Of a stretch of 27,292 nt of DNA, positions 5,539 to 19,100 are shown in pieces. Position numbers and translations under genes: made by a program. Each line of letters starts with the position of its first letter. Position 1 is the stretch's first letter. Below the pieces are notes generated by a model. That model was not told where the DNA came from and searched no databases. It was given only the letters and a program-made list of their open reading frames with translations. The DNA comes from an uncultured Lachnospiraceae bacterium (GTDB lineage: Bacteria; Bacillota; Clostridia; Lachnospirales; Lachnospiraceae), in NCBI GenBank assembly GCA_944376975.1, contig CALWEE010000001.1, positions 1 to 27,292 of the forward strand, given 5' to 3'.

Positions 5539-5570
5539 AAAAAAACTTCCGCCCGTATAAGGGCGAAAGT
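5539..5570 (-). terminator. Rho-independent terminator of the valS T-box
   Basis: The inverted repeat ACTTTCGCCC / GGGCGGAAGT (ten pairs, one G-U) has a six-base loop and is followed by seven T on the minus strand. It directly follows the T-box sequence and competes with the antiterminator. It is the off state of the switch. Confidence 0.92.
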
Positions 5571-5788
5571 CCGCGGTACCACCTTACTTACAGGCCGGAA
5601 GCCCGGTCTGTATCTTTAGCTGTCTGTAACGGGACAACCCGTGACAAAGTACTTGGAACCTGTCCGTTCCCCTGCCCTGTTCAAAAGCTACCTTCGGGAT
5701 ACAGAGCTCCGGGCTGCCTTTCAGCCGGCGGGCCGCCCTCTCTTGGAAGATATATCCTTACTCCTCTTTATCATCACATTTGCCTATG
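5539..5788 (-). promoter_or_regulatory. T-box riboswitch leader (tRNA-Val specific) of valS
   Basis: On the minus strand the leader contains the conserved T-box sequence AAGGTGGTACCGCGG at about 5571-5585. Its UGGU can pair with the ACCA end of uncharged tRNA. The start of stem I is the typical GATGATAAAGAGGAGTA (about 5760-5776), followed by AAGAGAG and the GGCTGAAAGGC distal-loop element near 5715-5726. The 3' side of stem I contains CCCGAAGGTAGC. The GTA at 5689-5691 is the best specifier codon and reads valine, which agrees with the gene downstream. Uncharged tRNA-Val should stabilise the antiterminator and allow valS, folC and the following genes to be transcribed. The specifier call is by position in the loop and was not folded by computation. 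Confidence 0.93.
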
Positions 5789-5916: not shown

Positions 5917-6618
5917 TTATCTTAATTCCACGCTTTCGACGCCGTTTAATCCGGCAGCCAACGTGTAGACCGTCTGGTTGTCCATTCCCGTGGGCAATTC
6001 CAGCACAGCGAGCAGACGGATCTTTCCGTCTTCCCTTCCCTTGGACATACTCATATTCTGCACTCTGAAGCCTCTTTCTTCGATCTCTGACGTGAACGAA
6101 GCGACATATTTCCTGTCTACGAACTCCACGACGACTTCACAGGTGGTGGAGCTTTCATGGGCCATATCGTTGATCCACTGTGTATGTTTGTACACAATGT
6201 ATACGATGATCGTCGTCACGATCGCGCCGCTGTAGTAGCCGCTCCCCACCGCCAGGCCGATACAGGCGCAGACCCACAGGCCGGCTGCGGTGGACAGGCC
6301 CCTTACGACCCGCCTTTTCCCGGTCACCATGATCGTACCGGCGCCGAGGAAACCGACGCCATTGATGACCTGGGCCGGAAGCCGGGCGATATCGCCTGTG
6401 TTGTATTCCATATAAAGATAGATAAACTGACCGGTCAGCATGACCAGAGCAGCTCCCACGCATACGATCGCGTACGTCTTAAACCCGGCCGCGCGGCCCT
6501 TGACACTCCGGCTGTATCCGACGATACCGCTCAAGAGCAGCGCCAAAAGCATGCGGATCAGAACGACCGGCGCGCTGAACGCATGCAGATAATCATTGAT
6601 CATTCCAATTATTTCCAC
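5917..6618 (-). CDS. MgtC/SapB family membrane protein (distal paralogue)
   Basis: The protein has 233 residues, full length for the family. The N-terminal half holds the MgtC membrane domain, about five hydrophobic segments. It includes the signature GYSRSVKGRAAGFKTY (about 34-49), then AQVINGVGFLGAGTIMVTG (about 82-100) and GLSTAAGLWVCACIGLAVG (about 107-125). The C-terminal 80 residues form a soluble ACT-like beta-alpha domain. MgtC proteins affect magnesium homeostasis, phosphate uptake and F1Fo ATPase in enteric bacteria and mycobacteria. The role in Clostridia is not established. The start is a GTG with AGGAG about eight bases upstream. It lies 77 bases after a clear paralogue and is the last gene before the terminator hairpin. 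It should be co-transcribed with the glycerol-3-phosphate genes. Confidence 0.9.
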   Translation of the reverse strand: MEIIGMINDYLHAFSAPVVLIRMLLALLLSGIVGYSRSVKGRAAGFKTYAIVCVGAALVMLTGQFIYLYMEYNTGDIARLPAQVINGVGFLGAGTIMVTGKRRVVRGLSTAAGLWVCACIGLAVGSGYYSGAIVTTIIVYIVYKHTQWINDMAHESSTTCEVVVEFVDRKYVASFTSEIEERGFRVQNMSMSKGREDGKIRLLAVLELPTGMDNQTVYTLAAGLNGVESVELR

Positions 6619-6695: not shown

Positions 6696-7406
6696 TTAAC
6701 CGTGCATATCCACGTAAAGGATGCTGCGCTGCTTCATCAGAAGCCTGTACAGTTCCTGTCTTTCCGTCCCCGGAGCAAGCTCAAGGGAAACGTCCATCCG
6801 GATGACATTCTCGTCATCTTCTTCGTCCATGGTGGATATGCCCATATTCAGCATATGGTAGCCGTTTTCCTCCAGGACTTTCAGGAAAGAAGAAACATCT
6901 TTCCGCGTTTCAAATTCCACACTCAGTTCACAGGCGTGGGAATGGGAGTGAGCCATGTCGTTGACCCACTGCATATGTCTGTATAATACAATGATGATCA
7001 CTGCCGCTATGATCGCGCCGCTGTAAAAACCGATGCCGCAGGCAAGCCCGATGCAGGCGCTTGCCCAGAGACCGGCCGCTGTCGTCAGACCTTTGATCTC
7101 CCGTCTGCCGGTGACCATGATCGTTCCGGTGCCGAGGAAACCGATACCGGCGATGACCTGGGCCGACATACGGGCCACGTCGCCCGTCTGATGAGCCAGG
7201 TTTATATAGATGTTCTGTGATGTCAACATGACAAGTGTCGAGCCGATGCAGACAAGCACATGTGTCTTGAATCCGGCTGCCCGGCCTTTCGCGCTTCGGC
7301 TGTATCCGATGATGCCGCTTAAAACACCGGCCATCACCAGCCGGAGCAACATGACCGGCATGCTGAAAGTATGTAAGTATTCGCTGATCGCTGCAATTGT
7401 CTCCAC
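6696..7406 (-). CDS. MgtC/SapB family membrane protein (proximal paralogue)
   Basis: The protein has 236 residues with the same plan as its neighbour: membrane domain with GYSRSAKGRAAGFKTHVLVC (about 34-53), AQVIAGIGFLGTGTIMVTG (about 82-100) and GLTTAAGLWASACIGLACG, then a soluble ACT-like domain. By eye the membrane halves of the two proteins are much more alike than the C-terminal halves, as expected for a tandem duplication whose regulatory domains diverged. This copy carries AHSHSHACE just after the last membrane segment; the other copy has AHESSTTCE there. The start is GTG with GGAG seven bases upstream. Only 26 bases, without a hairpin, separate it from the DUF1667 gene, so it belongs to the glycerol-3-phosphate operon. 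The transported or sensed ligand is unknown. Confidence 0.9.
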   Translation of the reverse strand: METIAAISEYLHTFSMPVMLLRLVMAGVLSGIIGYSRSAKGRAAGFKTHVLVCIGSTLVMLTSQNIYINLAHQTGDVARMSAQVIAGIGFLGTGTIMVTGRREIKGLTTAAGLWASACIGLACGIGFYSGAIIAAVIIIVLYRHMQWVNDMAHSHSHACELSVEFETRKDVSSFLKVLEENGYHMLNMGISTMDEEDDENVIRMDVSLELAPGTERQELYRLLMKQRSILYVDMHG

Positions 7407-12166: not shown

Positions 12167-14302
12167 TTATCTATTGCGGCAGGCGGCTTTTTTCTGTTCA
12201 ATGTATTCTTCCGCCATATGTTCGGCAGCTTCCCATTGCCCGTCGGCCTGAAGTTCCTTAAACCGGGAAAGATAGTCTGTCCGTTCCGCTAAAAACGCGT
12301 CTTCCGCCCGGGCGTACCGGTCATCCATATCGGCCAGCACATCCGGCGGGAGCATGAGCCTGGCGCTTTCTTCTTCCAGCGTCCGGGTATCGTCCATGAC
12401 TTTCAAGGCCAGGATCCACGCTTCCATGGACGCGGACGATCCGCTGATGTCAAACGCTTTCCGGAAACAGGCCGCCGCCGCTTTCATATTCGCCAGCCGG
12501 GCAAAAGCCACGCCGGTGTCGTGCCATACGATGCCTTTAAATTCCCTTGTCGCCATCGAACCCGGCTCGTCCATTAACGCCTGGACTTTTTTGTAGACCT
12601 TGAGCGCCTGCAGCGGATGGCCGTACCTCAGGTAATTGTCCGCCTCCACTTTCCGGCTTTCCATGGGGTTTTGAGCCTCGATCTCATCAATGGTGCGGTA
12701 AAGGCCTTCCAGCTCCCTGGAAGTGTAATATCCGGCTCCGTTCATCAGCAGTTTGACATAGTCTTTCAATGTCCGCTTCTGTTTCCGCGCCTCCCGCAGG
12801 TGCCTTACCAGGATCTTCTCTTTCAGCGCCGATTCCAGCCAGTAGAACAGTTCGTCGTCAAAGGTGTCTTCCGATACCGCGTAGATATGATGATAAACAT
12901 AATAACACAGTTCTTCCAGGGTATAGACTTTTATGCCGCTCAAATTGAAATAAAACGGCACCTGGTTTTCTTCTTCCGCCGTAAAGATCAGCCGTCCGAT
13001 CTCCGGCGCTTCCCGATCGCTGTAGCTTTCGTCATAAATATCCGCTATAAATTCCCATGTTTTCCCGGAAGACGGATAAAACTCGCCGAAGCCCTTGTCT
13101 TCCACATAAACATGACAGTGGGACGCGTCGTCGAACGTCATGCGGACCGCCAGCTTATCGCTTTTATCAAGCCTCGGTTCAAAACCTTCCATCGGCACTT
13201 CCACCCAGCGTTCCCGACGGGTCAGATAATCCTGTATGTTCAGCCGGAAGCTTTTCGCCCCGTCCAGTATGAACGCGGCCTTTCCCGAAGCGCTGTACCA
13301 TTCTTTTCCCGCCTGGACCAGTTCCACGTTCACCATCTGGCCATGCCGGCTTCCCCGGATATACACGGTTTTCGCCGTCACATCCTCGTTCAGGGCCACG
13401 AACGCGTCCTTTTCAAGAATGCCGGCTTGCCGCAGGCTCTGGTAGCAGGCCCCTCTGGCGAATATATTGGAACCGATGAACCCTCTCCGGTGATTGCAGA
13501 GATTTTTTAAGGATATCCGGGCCCAGTCGCCTTCAAATCCTTCCCCGGTCAGATACACGGTGGAAATGATCCGCTTGGCCGTAGCCTGACGGACAACTTC
13601 CAGGAATCGGCGGTCCAGTTCCGGCGGCGCCGTTTTCCCGATCTCGCTTCCGTCAAAATATTCTTTAAACGGGATGACTTCCGCCGACACGGTGGGCAGC
13701 GTCCGTTTTTTGGAAATGTTCAGATGATAATAGGTCATGCCGGTACTGCCGTAGTCAAACAGTCCCACATCGTGCTGCCACAGTTCCTTTTTCTGGTTCA
13801 GGGCATAATGCTCGTAACTGGATACATGGCTCTGGGCGCCGATCTGATCTGGCGTCACATAAAGGCGCGGCGCCAGTCCCTTTATGGCCTTTATCATTTC
13901 CCGCCCCAGATGCTCCACTGTCACGGTAAGGAAGCCGACTTTCCAGTGGGGATAATATTTGGTTATCATCTTCAGGCTTTCTTCGATGTAGATCTGTATC
14001 AGCTCGGTCTTGCGGTAGGTGTCCCCGTCCACGTCAAGCGTCGGTTCTTCTTCCAGATCTTTCACGAAATGATCCGCTTTCGCCCCTCTTTTTTCGTTGA
14101 TCGCCCGCCAGGCGTCATAACCGCACAGCCACGCGCCGCCGTCATAAAGGCGGCAAAGGACGGTGGGAACGCGTTCCATCATCTTATCGCCCACGTAGCA
14201 GATCGTGTCCATATCTTTGGATCTCTGATTATAACAGCACATCTGGACATAATCGTCGCACAGATCATAGCCGATGATCAGTTCTTTTATCCTGCTATCC
14301 AT
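12167..14302 (-). CDS. Divergent Hsp70/actin-fold protein with C-terminal TPR region (DUF5716-like)
   Basis: From ATG at 14302 the protein has 711 residues; an in-frame GTG at 14317 adds five. I prefer the ATG because GTGAGG lies about nine bases before it. The first 300 residues show actin/Hsp70 ATPase landmarks in order: phosphate-1-like IIGYDLCDDYVQM (9-21), phosphate-2-like VGLFDYGSTGMTYYHL (179-194), adenosine-loop-like VYLTGEGFEGDW (249-260) and FARGACYQSL (281-290). A beta-rich region follows at about 300-450, where Hsp70 has its substrate domain. Then come helices (LCYYVYHHIYAVSEDTFDDE near 465-484) and TPR-like repeats near 585-680. The glycine-rich loops are degenerate, so ATP hydrolysis is uncertain. 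It is fused end to end with the 1183-residue gene upstream. I recall such proteins as DUF5716 in Lachnospiraceae; function is unknown. Confidence 0.85.
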   Translation of the reverse strand: MDSRIKELIIGYDLCDDYVQMCCYNQRSKDMDTICYVGDKMMERVPTVLCRLYDGGAWLCGYDAWRAINEKRGAKADHFVKDLEEEPTLDVDGDTYRKTELIQIYIEESLKMITKYYPHWKVGFLTVTVEHLGREMIKAIKGLAPRLYVTPDQIGAQSHVSSYEHYALNQKKELWQHDVGLFDYGSTGMTYYHLNISKKRTLPTVSAEVIPFKEYFDGSEIGKTAPPELDRRFLEVVRQATAKRIISTVYLTGEGFEGDWARISLKNLCNHRRGFIGSNIFARGACYQSLRQAGILEKDAFVALNEDVTAKTVYIRGSRHGQMVNVELVQAGKEWYSASGKAAFILDGAKSFRLNIQDYLTRRERWVEVPMEGFEPRLDKSDKLAVRMTFDDASHCHVYVEDKGFGEFYPSSGKTWEFIADIYDESYSDREAPEIGRLIFTAEEENQVPFYFNLSGIKVYTLEELCYYVYHHIYAVSEDTFDDELFYWLESALKEKILVRHLREARKQKRTLKDYVKLLMNGAGYYTSRELEGLYRTIDEIEAQNPMESRKVEADNYLRYGHPLQALKVYKKVQALMDEPGSMATREFKGIVWHDTGVAFARLANMKAAAACFRKAFDISGSSASMEAWILALKVMDDTRTLEEESARLMLPPDVLADMDDRYARAEDAFLAERTDYLSRFKELQADGQWEAAEHMAEEYIEQKKAACRNR

Positions 14303-14317
14303 ACTATCCAGCCTCAC

Positions 14318-17300
14318 TTACACTATATCAAAAAGTTCTTTTGCCATATATGTTATCTTTTCATAGTCTTCCGCCGTCTTCCACATGGCCTCGTGATCGG
14401 AAAACTCTTTCTGGAGGATCATCCGGTTGATATGATCTTCCTCGCTTATCAGTTCTTCTTCACCGACAGCCTCCGGGCAAACCTTTACCGGCTTTGTCTG
14501 GATCTCGCGGCCGCCGTCGGAATCGATCACATACCACATCACGTGCTCGTCGGCAAACACCTGCCACGACTTGACAAAAAGCCCGCCGTACACATTCTGC
14601 ATATTTTCTTCATGCCACTCTCCCGGACGGCTGTCCGTGTTGAGCTGCCAGCAGATCTTCACCGAATGTTTCGGGCTGGTCACATAGCTGGCGAAGCAGC
14701 GGTCCACCAGTTCTCCCGGAACTTCCAGAAGTTCCCGGAACTTAAGGAAGCCGGGAAGGATCAGTCCCCTGTTGATAAAGCCGGATATCTCTTTGCGGAT
14801 CCACGGCCTGAGGTTTTCCTCCGGCGCCTCCATGGATGAAAAATGCTTCAGCATGGCCAGGCTGCACACGTCCCGGCTCCGGCCCATCTGATCCAGTTCG
14901 ATCTCCATGGCCTGGTAGATGCCGGCGCTCATGGGAACGTCTTTGACCAGATACTGATAGGCGTTATAGCCCAGATAGGCCCGCACGATCTTTAAGTTCG
15001 GCTTCTTTTTGTAATAGGAATCGAAGACCTCCCGGGTCTCCGCTACCCGATTTTCCGTAAAAAGGACCTGGCAGAGCGTCTTTTCTTCCAGAAGGTACGC
15101 GTCGACTTCAAACGCGTTGGAGGCCCGCCACAGTTCCAGATATTCCTCCGTCGTGCCCAGATAGTACCGGTTCAGGTACTGGAGGATCGTCTCGTCGTAT
15201 TTTCCGGCCCGGAACGAATGGAAAGACATTTCGAGCAGGAGCGGATCTTCCGTGAAATCGGTCTTGCGGATCATGCGGGAACACAGCCGCATCAGCCGTT
15301 TGTCCTGTATATTGTCATACCCGTATTCGCTGATGGCGTTAAACGCCCTTTCCACGAAGCCCCGCTGGATATAATACTCGATGATGCTGCCCCGCTCGTT
15401 GCTGCCCAGCAGGCGTATATCCAGCCGGAGCAGGTATTTTTCCAGGGTCTCCCCTTCATAATTCTCATAATAGATGTCGATCAGGTTCTTCAGTATATTC
15501 TTCCGGTATTCGTCCCGGATCGTGCGCAGTTTCAGCGTCCGCTTATAAATATCGATGGACACTTCATCCACCATCTGGTAACGGAGCGCCCGTTCGCTCC
15601 GGTTCATCAGGACCATGGCGCTGCTGGGGTTCAGCTCGTAACATTCCTTGATGAATTCACTGTCGTCCATCATCTTCTTCATTTCATAGGTCACGGAGCT
15701 GATATACCGGTGTTTCTGCCCGTCTTCAAAGGCGATATTGTAATCGTCCATAAAAATGTCCACATAGGCTTTTCCGCCGGCCAGCGGGTAGATGAACTCC
15801 CGGTCGATATCCCGCATGGTCACCACCACCGCCGTGATCCGGGGATGGGCGCAGGTTATCTTATATTTGAACATGACCGCCGGCAGTTCCTCGGCCAGCT
15901 TCCGGTTCATCTTGTCTTTCGTGATATAATGCCGGTACAGGCAGGCCATATTGTCGTCCATGCGGCCTGAAGCCAGCTGCTCATGGGTAAAGGCCTTCAT
16001 GATGTTGTCATAGGAATGATAGACCCTTGGGATCTCTTCCCGGTGCTCGATGATATACCGGTAAAGGAAAGCTTTTTTCCCGGCCGGCAGCTGATTATTG
16101 TAGTTAAAATAATAGAGCACCGCCGACGGCAGCGTGTCCGCCTTCGCCTCGTCCAATGACAGCATATAATATTCGTAGATCTGGGTCAGTTTAAGGGATG
16201 ACTGGATACCCAGCAGATACCAGCGGTTATACTTGCTGTCTGTCATGGCGCCTTTGATGAGCATGCCGCAGACTGCCGCCAACAGTTCCTTCTTCTCATA
16301 TATGCCGCACAGCGTCATCATGGCGCGAAGGACCGCCGGATTGAACGTCTTTTCGTGGACGGCCAGATCCGCGTACTGGTAGATCAGCGTCTGGGACAGC
16401 CGTTCATGACGCGCGCCCCAGAGGAGCAGCGCCACTTCAAAGCGGTCCAGTTCCCGCACGATGGACGGATCTTCATTCATCAGCCGAAGGGCTTCGGAAT
16501 AAAGGAACGGACTGTGGCAGCCTTTTTCAAATTCGTTCTTGATCAGTTTGAACGTGGCCGCGCCGCCGCCTGCTATCCGTTCATCCAGACGGATCAGCAT
16601 ATACAAAAGTTCCCACCGGTCGCACTGTCCGGAATAAAATTCCCGGAAACGCTCGATGATGTAGCGGGTGTAGCCTTCATCTTTCCGGTAAAGCACCTCG
16701 ATGTACATGGCGAAACAATATTTAAGGAAGGCGGTCCGCCTCAGTTCCCGCACGTTGATGTCGGACATGATATCCCTGGCCTGGGTATCTTCGCCGGCCA
16801 TCGTCAGAAAAGCCGCTTCCAGAAGGGCATAATCGACGGAATCACTGTTGTTCCGGCACCCGTCCACGTCTTCCCTTGTCTGGGCGTACCACTCGTCCCG
16901 GCTGATCGCTTTCTGTTCATAAGCCAGGGCGCGCCGGAAAACGCGGTAAACGCTTTTTTCCAGGAAATGCCTGGTATCCTCTTCTTCCCGGAACGCTTCT
17001 TTCCGGCACTGGACGCGGACTTCGATATCGCCGAAAAAGGTATGGATGATGATCTTGCCGTAATTGTTGCCCCGCGTCATCCATTCCGGATCAATAAAAT
17101 ATTCCAGTTCATAATAACTACCGAGAAAATCTTCGGTCGTCAGCCGCCGTTTGTACACCCGGAGGAAATCCCCCTCTGTTGTCACCGTGATCTCCTGGTA
17201 GCCCCAACCGCTTTTTTCAATGACCAGTTTGTCCGCGAAGGCTTCGTCCACTTTGCCGCAGATGATCTCCCGCTGGCTGACCGACAGGCGCACCTGTTCC

Positions 17301-17869
17301 TTGCGCTTGACCGTACAGAGGAACTCTTCCATGGCTTGATTGATGTTCCTTCCCCGGACCAGTTTATCGTAAATATGACTGTGCAACTTATTGACCAGGC
17401 ACACGCGTTTAAAATTCTCCGACCGGAACAGCTTCACCGCTTCCTGCCAGTGCCGCGCCGCGAGCCGGGTAAATTCGTCCAGGTCGCCCACATGGCCGAT
17501 GGATGTTTCACAGAATGGCGCGCAGATCTCCACCTGGTAAGGCACGGCGATCTCGCCGCCGTTGCTGATCAGGCTGATGCGGCCTTCCACCTTGTCCCCG
17601 GGCTCCATGCCATGGCTGTCAAACGTATAATGGATCGTGTTGTCCGGGCCGATGATATCGGTCTCCACGCACTGCATAGGCTTATTGGAAGAAAAGATCT
17701 TCGCCCGTATTTCGACTTTATTCTCTGAATAGACACGCAGCTCTCCGTTGCATGTACTTTCCGCTTCAACTTCCAGGCAGATCTTATCTTCAGACAACCG
17801 GATATCCGGGCAGTCATATTCAAAGATTCCTTTGGATAACAGATTAATCTTCTCTTTCAATATTCTCAC
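14318..17869 (-). CDS. Very large beta-sandwich/alpha-solenoid protein (DUF5717-like)
   Basis: The protein has up to 1183 residues and no signal peptide or membrane segment. Residues about 10-115 form a beta-rich, Ig-like domain, and a second beta domain spans about 205-295 (KSGWGYQEITVTTEGDFLRV and nearby strands). Residues about 300-1060 are almost wholly helical with repeated Tyr/Leu/Arg-rich helix pairs, an alpha-solenoid. A third beta domain lies at about 1069-1133 (SVKICWQLNTDSRPGEWHEE), then a helical tail. I see no catalytic motif. The GTG start has a poor ribosome-binding site; TTG three codons later, preceded by AGGTGA, is a credible alternative (end 17860). Its stop codon abuts the start region of the Hsp70-like gene, so the two are translationally coupled. 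I recall DUF5717 for this family. A scaffold role is inference. Confidence 0.85.
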   Translation of the reverse strand: MRILKEKINLLSKGIFEYDCPDIRLSEDKICLEVEAESTCNGELRVYSENKVEIRAKIFSSNKPMQCVETDIIGPDNTIHYTFDSHGMEPGDKVEGRISLISNGGEIAVPYQVEICAPFCETSIGHVGDLDEFTRLAARHWQEAVKLFRSENFKRVCLVNKLHSHIYDKLVRGRNINQAMEEFLCTVKRKEQVRLSVSQREIICGKVDEAFADKLVIEKSGWGYQEITVTTEGDFLRVYKRRLTTEDFLGSYYELEYFIDPEWMTRGNNYGKIIIHTFFGDIEVRVQCRKEAFREEEDTRHFLEKSVYRVFRRALAYEQKAISRDEWYAQTREDVDGCRNNSDSVDYALLEAAFLTMAGEDTQARDIMSDINVRELRRTAFLKYCFAMYIEVLYRKDEGYTRYIIERFREFYSGQCDRWELLYMLIRLDERIAGGGAATFKLIKNEFEKGCHSPFLYSEALRLMNEDPSIVRELDRFEVALLLWGARHERLSQTLIYQYADLAVHEKTFNPAVLRAMMTLCGIYEKKELLAAVCGMLIKGAMTDSKYNRWYLLGIQSSLKLTQIYEYYMLSLDEAKADTLPSAVLYYFNYNNQLPAGKKAFLYRYIIEHREEIPRVYHSYDNIMKAFTHEQLASGRMDDNMACLYRHYITKDKMNRKLAEELPAVMFKYKITCAHPRITAVVVTMRDIDREFIYPLAGGKAYVDIFMDDYNIAFEDGQKHRYISSVTYEMKKMMDDSEFIKECYELNPSSAMVLMNRSERALRYQMVDEVSIDIYKRTLKLRTIRDEYRKNILKNLIDIYYENYEGETLEKYLLRLDIRLLGSNERGSIIEYYIQRGFVERAFNAISEYGYDNIQDKRLMRLCSRMIRKTDFTEDPLLLEMSFHSFRAGKYDETILQYLNRYYLGTTEEYLELWRASNAFEVDAYLLEEKTLCQVLFTENRVAETREVFDSYYKKKPNLKIVRAYLGYNAYQYLVKDVPMSAGIYQAMEIELDQMGRSRDVCSLAMLKHFSSMEAPEENLRPWIRKEISGFINRGLILPGFLKFRELLEVPGELVDRCFASYVTSPKHSVKICWQLNTDSRPGEWHEENMQNVYGGLFVKSWQVFADEHVMWYVIDSDGGREIQTKPVKVCPEAVGEEELISEEDHINRMILQKEFSDHEAMWKTAEDYEKITYMAKELFDIV

Positions 17870-17900
17870 CTGTACTTTATTTCTTCTGTCTGTCGCTTCG

Positions 17901-17929
17901 TTTACATTTCGCGAACTTCAGTGTATACT
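17901..17929 (+). promoter_or_regulatory. Promoter of the aminotransferase gene
   Basis: TTTACA (17901-17906) and TATACT (17924-17929) are separated by exactly 17 bases, a strong sigmaA pattern. The start codon at 18003 lies about 70 bases beyond the predicted start of transcription. It interleaves with the divergent promoter for the 1183-residue gene. Confidence 0.8.
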
Positions 17930-17945
17930 GGATACGTTAGTATTG

Positions 17946-17975
17946 ATTATACCACCATGCCTGAACATGGCGCAA
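17946..17975 (-). promoter_or_regulatory. Candidate promoter of the DUF5717/DUF5716/glpP operon
   Basis: On the minus strand a perfect TATAAT (17946-17951) lies 18 bases after TTGCGC (17970-17975). Transcription would start near 17939, inside the region of the divergent aminotransferase promoter. The same TTGCGC hexamer is used in the glycerol-3-phosphate promoter. The -35 match is partial. Confidence 0.65.
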
Positions 17976-18002
17976 CAAAAAACGACAAGAGGAGTGTTTT
18001 AT

Positions 18003-19100
18003 ATGATACAGATGTCTGACCACTTCCACGGCAGCGATCTTGAGAAGATCGAGGCGACCTATCATATCAAAAAGGAAGACATCACCAGTTTTTCCGCCAA
18101 CGTCAATCCCATCGGGATCTCCCCGCTGCTCCGGGAGACGCTGGCCCATCACATTGACGATATCACCGGCTATCCGGACCGGGAATATACTTCCCTCCGC
18201 CGCTGTATCGGCCGCTACATCGACGCGGATCCGAAAAATATCCTCGTGGGCAACGGATCGTCCGAACTGATCTCCCTTTTTATCGAAAATCTGAACCCGA
18301 AAAAGGCCCTCATCCTGGGGCCCACCTATTCCGAATATGAACACGCCGTCACCCTCTGCGGAGGCAGCGCTTATTATTACCGGCTGGACGAAAAGCACAA
18401 CTTCTCTGTCCATGTGGAAAAGCTGGAAGAAAAGCTGACCGAAAAGATCGATCTGCTCCTTATATGCAATCCCAATAATCCCACTTCCACCGCCATCTCC
18501 CGGCAAGATATGCGGCGCATACTGGACACATGCAAGATGCACGGCATCTATGTCCTGATCGACGAAACCTACGTGGAATTTACCGAAGACGTCCGTTCCG
18601 TCACCGCCGTCCCGCTGGCCCATATCTACAACAACGTGATCATCCTGCGGGGGATCTCCAAATTCTTCGCGGCGCCCGGCCTGCGCCTGGGCTATGCCAT
18701 CTGCAGCAACCGGGACCTGACAAAAAAAGTATCCGGCCGGCAGAATCCGTGGAGCATCAATACACTGGCCGCCATAGCCGGAGAGATCATGTTCAGCGAC
18801 GAAGATTACATTGAAGAAACCCGCAGTCTCATCTCGGAGGAACGGGCGCGGATCTGCCGTTTCCTGGACGGATGCGCCGGCCTGACCTATTATCCGCCGA
18901 CCGCCAATTTTATCCTTGTCAAGATCACCCGTGAGGGCGTGACCGCCGACGACCTGTTCGACGCGGCCATCCGCAGGGGCCTGATGATACGCAACTGCGC
19001 GTCTTTCCCCTTCCTTGACAACAAGTATTTCCGTTTCTGCTTCATGATGCCGGAAAAAAATGATGAACTTCTGGCGCTGATCAAAGAGATGCTGGGATGA
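18003..19100 (+). CDS. PLP-dependent class I/II aminotransferase, HisC/CobD-like
   Basis: The protein has 365 residues from the ATG at 18003, chosen because AGAGGAG lies eight bases upstream; the open frame extends further 5' without a start site of that quality and would overlap the divergent promoters. Fold-type I landmarks are FSANVNPIG (30-38), GNGSSELI (83-90), the NPNNPT loop (156-161), D187 and Y190 in IDETY, the PLP Schiff-base lysine K220 in RGISKFFAAPGLRLGY, R228 and the carboxylate-binding R344. The opening HGSD...FSANVNPIG resembles threonine-phosphate decarboxylase CobD, while the overall length also fits histidinol-phosphate aminotransferase. No histidine or cobalamin genes are nearby, so the substrate is unknown. 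It is the only plus-strand gene here and is monocistronic, with its own promoter and terminator. Confidence 0.9.
   Translation: MIQMSDHFHGSDLEKIEATYHIKKEDITSFSANVNPIGISPLLRETLAHHIDDITGYPDREYTSLRRCIGRYIDADPKNILVGNGSSELISLFIENLNPKKALILGPTYSEYEHAVTLCGGSAYYYRLDEKHNFSVHVEKLEEKLTEKIDLLLICNPNNPTSTAISRQDMRRILDTCKMHGIYVLIDETYVEFTEDVRSVTAVPLAHIYNNVIILRGISKFFAAPGLRLGYAICSNRDLTKKVSGRQNPWSINTLAAIAGEIMFSDEDYIEETRSLISEERARICRFLDGCAGLTYYPPTANFILVKITREGVTADDLFDAAIRRGLMIRNCASFPFLDNKYFRFCFMMPEKNDELLALIKEMLG

Follow-up and report, generated by a model that had tools for sequence, protein, structure and literature searches.

In the account of the yeast ribosome-associated complex (RAC) given in PMC7083937, the Hsp70 Ssz1 does not hydrolyse ATP, lacks the alpha-helical lid (SBD-alpha) of its substrate-binding domain (SBD) and has the beta part of that domain, SBD-beta, complemented by a dedicated partner. 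A non-canonical Hsp70 that appears comparable to Ssz1 is encoded, next to the gene for a large solenoid protein, in the DNA analysed here: a stretch of 27,292 nt (the window; contig CALWEE010000001.1, positions 1 to 27,292) from an uncultured bacterium (GCA_944376975.1), placed in the Lachnospiraceae by the names of its relatives. The two proteins belong to the families DUF5716 and DUF5717. DUF5716 is a pseudo-Hsp70 that has kept the fold of the nucleotide-binding domain (NBD) and of SBD-beta. By analogy with Ssz1, we lean slightly towards a role for it as an adaptor in a stable scaffold or client-holding complex, descended from an eight-gene machine found in sister families. Whereas Ssz1 is eukaryotic and its partner is a J-protein, the candidate partner of DUF5716 is an ASH/PapD and solenoid protein, and no J-domain was listed in the six proteins scanned of the eight encoded by one such array (locus L041). 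The likeness to DnaK and GrpE lies in the shared NBD and SBD-beta fold and in the canonical Hsp70s and GrpE-domain protein of the sister arrays; the difference is that DUF5716 is without the catalytic positions and that the array Hsp70s group apart from DnaK.

The two genes lie head to tail on the minus strand, DUF5717 upstream and DUF5716 downstream, and both open reading frames (ORFs) are present where the earlier note had placed them. Judging from the sequence, the DUF5716 ORF (12167-14317, (-); 716 aa) likely starts at the ATG at 14302, which is preceded by GTGAGG and lies 15 nt past the DUF5717 stop. The resulting 711-aa protein (12167..14302, (-)) is, by Pfam and the predicted model, a long form in which the pseudo-Hsp70 is fused to a TPR tail. 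DUF5717 (14318..17869, (-)) has 1183 aa, or 1180 aa from a TTG at 17860. The family names given in the earlier note are right: the window proteins matched DUF5716_C at E 6.4e-85 (285 bits, gathering score 34.7), DUF5717_N at E 8e-271 (901 bits, gathering score 25) and DUF5717 at E 8.7e-77 (259 bits, gathering score 25). The descriptions of these Pfam entries (PF18980, PF18983 and PF18984) state no function, PF18980 spans just residues 130-423 of the 716-aa ORF, and neither window protein had a match in NCBIfam or PHROGs. Literature searches, judged from titles, found no work on DUF5716, DUF5717 or the array, in line with the earlier view of the system as undescribed; a single mention of DUF5716 occurs in a paper whose title concerns something else, and another paper returned deals with restriction systems.

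A DUF5716 family profile, built from 111 of 152 matches, found DnaK in the PDB at E 5.8e-5, with residues 8-156 aligned to DnaK 4-145, and gave a second, weak match of profile positions 345-403 to DnaK SBD-beta; single-sequence PDB searches with DUF5716 and DUF5717 returned no matches, and the DUF5717 profile gave one weak match (E 0.6). DnaK was also the best structural match of the predicted DUF5716 model, extending to model residue 423. (The structure models were made from proteins P0001 and P0121; besides the start, P0001 departs from its window counterpart at residues 202 and 591, and P0121 at residue 401.) The Hsp70/actin-like segments seen earlier therefore exceed chance, by profile and by model, and residues 1-300 have an Hsp70/actin-like fold. 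The actin-like NBD (residues ~6-300; 13403..14287, (-); profile against PDB, model and motif counts) has degenerate loops: GYDLCDD at phosphate-1, FDYGSTG at phosphate-2 and LTGEGFEG at the adenosine motif. What had been described only as a beta-rich domain exists, and its identity is Hsp70 SBD-beta (residues ~302-425, with an invariant DxGFG; 13028..13399, (-)), as the model and the weak profile match indicate. The TPR-like repeats are likewise present (residues ~437-711; 12170..12994, (-); hhalign E 2.7e-22), but as one part of a fused protein. In other relatives the tail is a stand-alone gene of ~256-441 aa: it is separate in the sister arrays and in 15 of 20 own-family loci, which read DUF5717 - DUF5716 (short) - tail. 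It is fused to DUF5716 in four own-genus loci, as in the window, and genome G029 has a 713-aa DUF5716 with no separate tail match. The window DUF5716 had no Pfam HSP70 (PF00012) match at E ≤ 1; its sister-type homologue in L041 has matches to DUF5716_C (2e-33) as well as to HSP70 (1.8e-14) and so bridges the two families.

In the sister families the gene order is N400 - sol900 - hspA - GrpE-like - DUF5716 - hspB - hspC - tail, complete in L040, L041 and L046. In the L041 array, Pfam HSP70 matched hspA (E 6e-78), hspB (2e-63) and hspC (8e-92). The last of these (L041:4787-6862, (-)), conserved in the arrays, is a canonical Hsp70 that carries a VWA domain (PF00092, 7e-10) at its C-terminus and shows a DTTGS stretch. 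The GrpE-like gene (L041:10127-12019, (-)) encodes 630 aa with a C-terminal GrpE domain (PF01025, E 7e-11) and has the database name nucleotide exchange factor GrpE; its first 480 residues gave no convincing Pfam match. Most proteins of this type have a long N-terminal part and a total of 560-650 aa, those of G039 and perhaps G047 being shorter. The GrpE-like profile found at least 31 proteins, among them that of Defluviitalea phaphyphila, which is identical to the L041 protein, and one of D. raffinosedens. At least 18 loci in titled genomes carry hspA at 59-82% identity, of which at least two (L108 and L109) appear, judged by length, to repeat the contigs of L048 and L042; identity then drops to ≤35% among the matches listed. 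All eight genes lie within the fetched stretch in six of these loci (L100, L101, L102, L106, L107 and L109), and the remainder are cut by a contig end, incomplete or dispersed. In G040 the complete set is dispersed over three contigs. In L045 (G039), hspC and the tail are each split into two ORFs, through either sequencing error or decay.

Among 61 relatives the distribution of hspA is bimodal (942-1121 bits in 11 genomes, ≤230 in all others). The GrpE-like profile matched in 16, strongly in the same 11 (E ≤ 4e-73) and weakly in five (6e-9 to 4e-4). The five weak matches, four of which fall in own-family genomes, are to ORFs about as long as an ordinary GrpE (195-239 aa). Neither an array hspA nor an array GrpE-like protein was found by profile search in the 37 own-family genomes or in G051. 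In the own genome a contig end truncates DnaK, and HSP70 has three further matches, all weak.

Loss within DUF5716 concerns both residues and length. The reference positions in DnaK we take to be T11/T12, K70, E171 and GGGT. At the aligned K70 and E171 positions there is no Lys and no Glu in 111 sequences, with His at the second in 107; the phosphate-loop threonines are retained in just 2 and 1 of 111, and the phosphate-2 glycine position 185 is G in 15. The spacing from phosphate-2 to the adenosine motif is 60-79 residues (median 70; n = 111 own-type sequences). Eight canonical array Hsp70s have 144-180 residues there; of the 18 sister-family DUF5716 proteins, 16 have 135-152, L114 has 117 and L115 has 133. 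Alignment of own-type against sister-type DUF5716 (hhalign A1 vs A6, E 1.3e-54) places the gap at residues 221-245, so that hhalign and motif spacing locate the site of ~80 extra lobe II residues of the sister homologues at 13568..13642, (-). By position rather than superposition, these residues would correspond to NBD subdomain IIB, which PMC10825016 describes as the GrpE contact and as rotated by exchange factors. In 61 of the 111 sequences the protein is shorter than 480 aa and ends shortly after SBD-beta, which leaves no room for an SBD-alpha lid; in the 50 long forms the additional part matches the tail gene by profile. Ssz1 keeps subdomain IIB. Hsp110 (Sse1), a nucleotide exchange factor, has an extended SBD, whereas the short forms of DUF5716 stop after SBD-beta. 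Because the catalytic positions and ~80 lobe II residues are missing, an ATP-hydrolysis cycle is unlikely; DUF5716 is probably unable to go through a normal ATP- and GrpE-driven binding cycle, and the alignments suggest that it lacks ATPase activity.

For DUF5717, the earlier layout of beta domains around a long alpha-solenoid stands, with four beta stretches in the model rather than three (residues 16-115, 187-290, 665-729 and 1055-1127; DSSP on the model, pLDDT 87.6). The first two (17516..17815 and 16991..17302, both (-)) are PapD/MSP/ASH-like, and the N-terminus has an Ig-like PapD fold. The alpha-solenoid covers residues ~294-1050 (14711..16981, (-); DSSP on the same model), with the third beta domain inserted at 665-729, and is followed by the C-terminal beta domain (14480..14698, (-); DSSP). 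In hhalign comparisons, DUF5717 corresponds to N400 (E 2.2e-45) followed by sol900 (E 5e-91); the controls against DUF5717 (A2) gave 0.46-0.52 for GrpE-like, hspA and two genes described below, TMcc and MEM, and 0.0026 for the TPR-containing tail. DUF5716 (A1) gave 0.0041 with sol900 and 0.0023 with N400, values near 0.002 being background. Of 18 sister loci, 15 (L040-L047, L050, L053, L055, L199-L202) have N400 and sol900 as separate genes; in L054 (G047, 1191 aa), L198 (G840, 1326 aa) and L203 (G878, 1329 aa) the two are fused. The fusion probably arose more than once; its occurrence in G047, G840 and G878 rules it out as a hallmark of the own family.

The tight coupling of the two genes that had been proposed is borne out in both genome samples. 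Among the 61 relatives, DUF5716 occurs in 47 and DUF5717 in 47; G024 (67% complete) is without DUF5717, and G041 (80% complete), in which the array reaches a contig end, is without DUF5716. The system is carried by 36 of 37 own-family genomes, and in 34 of the 35 that have both genes these share a contig, both lying near contig ends in G013. The own genome (91% complete) has one match per family. In the order-wide sample of 295 genomes, a threshold of E ≤ 0.001 finds both genes in 137, DUF5716 alone in 5, DUF5717 alone in 8 and neither in 145 (Fisher test, p ~1e-66, treating related genomes as independent); one gene stands alone in 13 of 150 carriers, so that the frequent separation which the earlier note named as a possible refutation is not seen. 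Over the Pfam cut-off, the counts are 134 of 295 for DUF5716 and 143 of 295 for DUF5717. PF18980 also weakly matches hspB, and some lone DUF5716 calls outside the own family may therefore be hspB. All 48 own-family genomes in the order-wide sample have both genes among the matches listed. Phylum-wide, 5 of 398 genomes had DUF5717, and class-wide, 16 of 391 had DUF5716 over the cut-off, all of these being own-family genomes; one sub-cut-off DUF5716 match in the class sample lies in another family (G756, E 2.7e-4), and nothing over the cut-off lay outside the order in either sample. Two genomes of one genus of family f5, G961 and G1038 (7.7 and 8.8 Mb), carry the system and are unusually large among the genomes listed. 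Taken together, the gene fusions and the joint presence of the genes, including the dispersed set of G040, argue for one functional unit.

Several observations pull the other way from an ATP-independent adaptor in a scaffold. The K70 region is variable, with a Lys two positions further on in 32 of 111 sequences, so that the call of K70 loss rests on the alignment. Residues G11 (111 of 111), D13 (109), G253 (111) and G255 (110) are conserved, and nucleotide binding may thus persist. Locus L114 pairs a short, odd DUF5716 of 412 aa (spacing 117) with GrpE-like and canonical Hsp70s, and G051, which has no hspA or GrpE-like match, has kept the longer spacing (137). The 13 discordant genomes comprise eight from other families with DUF5717 without DUF5716 and five with the reverse. 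Matches to the DUF5717 solenoid are weak, and genomic context gives no functional assignment. A strict coincidence of GrpE-like loss with lobe II loss, considered at one point, is broken by L114 and G051, leaving a trend only. L114 itself (UBA4039) has an unrecognisable adenosine motif in its DUF5716, which stands beside hspA, hspB, hspC, GrpE-like and TMcc, and is possibly a separate reduction.

The conserved G11, D13, G253 and G255 around the site, together with the Hsp70 fold with SBD-beta, are what would be expected of a working switch in which ATP drives the loading or remodelling of the DUF5717 scaffold, close to the Hsp70-like switch of the earlier note. We regard this as unlikely, since the aligned Lys70 and Glu171 are gone in all 111 sequences and the phosphate-1 threonines in nearly all, the ~80 lobe II residues are missing, the short forms are without a lid, and the own-family genomes have no strong match to the array GrpE-like protein, only the four weak ones of ordinary GrpE size; the switch is accordingly not supported. 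The same glycines and D13 would also suit a protein that binds nucleotide without hydrolysing it, the bound nucleotide serving as structural cofactor or as a sensor tuning scaffold assembly, and there is a precedent in Ssz1, which PMC7083937 describes as binding ATP without hydrolysis. The variation of the phosphate-2 glycines speaks against such binding. In DnaK, subdomain IIB carries adenosine-side residues, and these would go with IIB if that is what was lost; this explanation, too, seems improbable.

That the two genes are functionally unrelated and kept together by inherited synteny alone is suggested by the CobD-like aminotransferase and coiled-coil membrane genes also conserved nearby in many loci. 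We doubt it, given the joint presence and absence across 295 genomes, the gene fusions, and the set of G040, dispersed yet complete.

In a tree of 34 proteins, hspA, hspC and the DnaK-type sequences form well-supported groups and hspB a weaker one (91/89); the split of {DUF5716, hspB} from {hspA, hspC, DnaK-type} has 100/100 support, with long branches, and hspB is the array Hsp70 nearest to DUF5716 (hhalign E 9e-20 over 408 columns). That DUF5716 is an actin-like cytoskeletal protein and not an Hsp70 derivative, an idea its NBD invites by belonging to the actin/Hsp70 superfamily, is very improbable in view of this relationship and of the SBD-beta.

Other genes surround the pair. The glycerol-3-phosphate antiterminator gene lies 23 nt downstream of DUF5716; by gene starts, glycerol-3-phosphate genes are linked downstream in own-genus loci L057-L060, and none was seen beside the pair in L061-L076. 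Divergent from DUF5717 is a CobD/HisC-like aminotransferase (17748-19100, (+)). By N-terminal residues, a similar one adjoins DUF5717 in 9 of 20 own-family loci besides the window (L058-L061, L063, L067, L071, L073 and L074), and one also lies near the array of L047. TMcc (L071:13177-14373, (+), and relatives), a coiled coil of ~390 aa with two hydrophobic stretches, stands beside the tail in many own-family loci and at or near a ~870-900-aa gene, which may be valS, in 6 of 10 others (L089-L098). It was rejected as a component: it occurs in 33 of 61 genomes, including some without the system, and was not found in the five own-genus genomes. MEM (L053:6748-7743, (-); also in L042, L043, L046, L047 and L050), just upstream of N400, has hydrophobic stretches and a coiled-coil-like tail; its database matches are all weak, among them ZorA at E 3e-4 to the MEM tail alone. 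Elsewhere in the window, a T-box leader (5556-5783, (-); RF00230, 106.5 bits) precedes a gene for 886 aa, a putative valyl-tRNA synthetase by the look of its start. Two genes in tandem (5917-6618 and 6696-7406, (-)), whose products of 233 and 236 aa resemble each other at the N-terminus, adjoin the glycerol-3-phosphate oxidoreductase cluster. A role in anti-phage defence was set aside, as neither window protein had a PADLOC match at E ≤ 0.001 and the system is near-universal in the family; among eight sister-locus proteins scanned, four had weak partial matches.

In the adaptor model that we favour, DUF5716 would be fixed in place, its SBD-beta and cleft holding an extended segment of a partner (DUF5717, the TPR tail or both), in a mode modelled on the complementation of yeast Ssz1 by Zuo1. 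With the ASH/PapD-like solenoid DUF5717 it would form a stable cytoplasmic scaffold or client-holding complex. The fold, the residue loss, the shortened lobe II, the gene fusions, the co-occurrence and the sister array are computed results; a physical complex of the two proteins, the strand-holding mode, the client and any cellular role are what we infer. The pair would descend from the eight-gene machine, in which a pseudo-Hsp70 and a GrpE-like exchange factor accompany three canonical Hsp70s, the array presumably having come first. The components are of known kinds; what appears to be new is the way they are combined, the change of an Hsp70 machine into a scaffold, and the apparent loss of IIB.

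We consider it rather probable that the order has a second, dedicated Hsp70 machine apart from DnaK, built round an ASH/solenoid scaffold, and that in the Lachnospiraceae an ATP-independent scaffold is what was left of this machine once the canonical Hsp70s, the GrpE-like protein and, in the remaining Hsp70, part of lobe II (by inference IIB) had been lost. Hsp70 is among the best-studied protein machines, and here an apparently undescribed Hsp70-derived system is near-universal in one gut family. With the intermediate and complete arrays of sister families, Defluviitalea among them, it would serve as a natural experiment on the passage from ATPase chaperone to adaptor, and it gives two families of unassigned function a testable identity.

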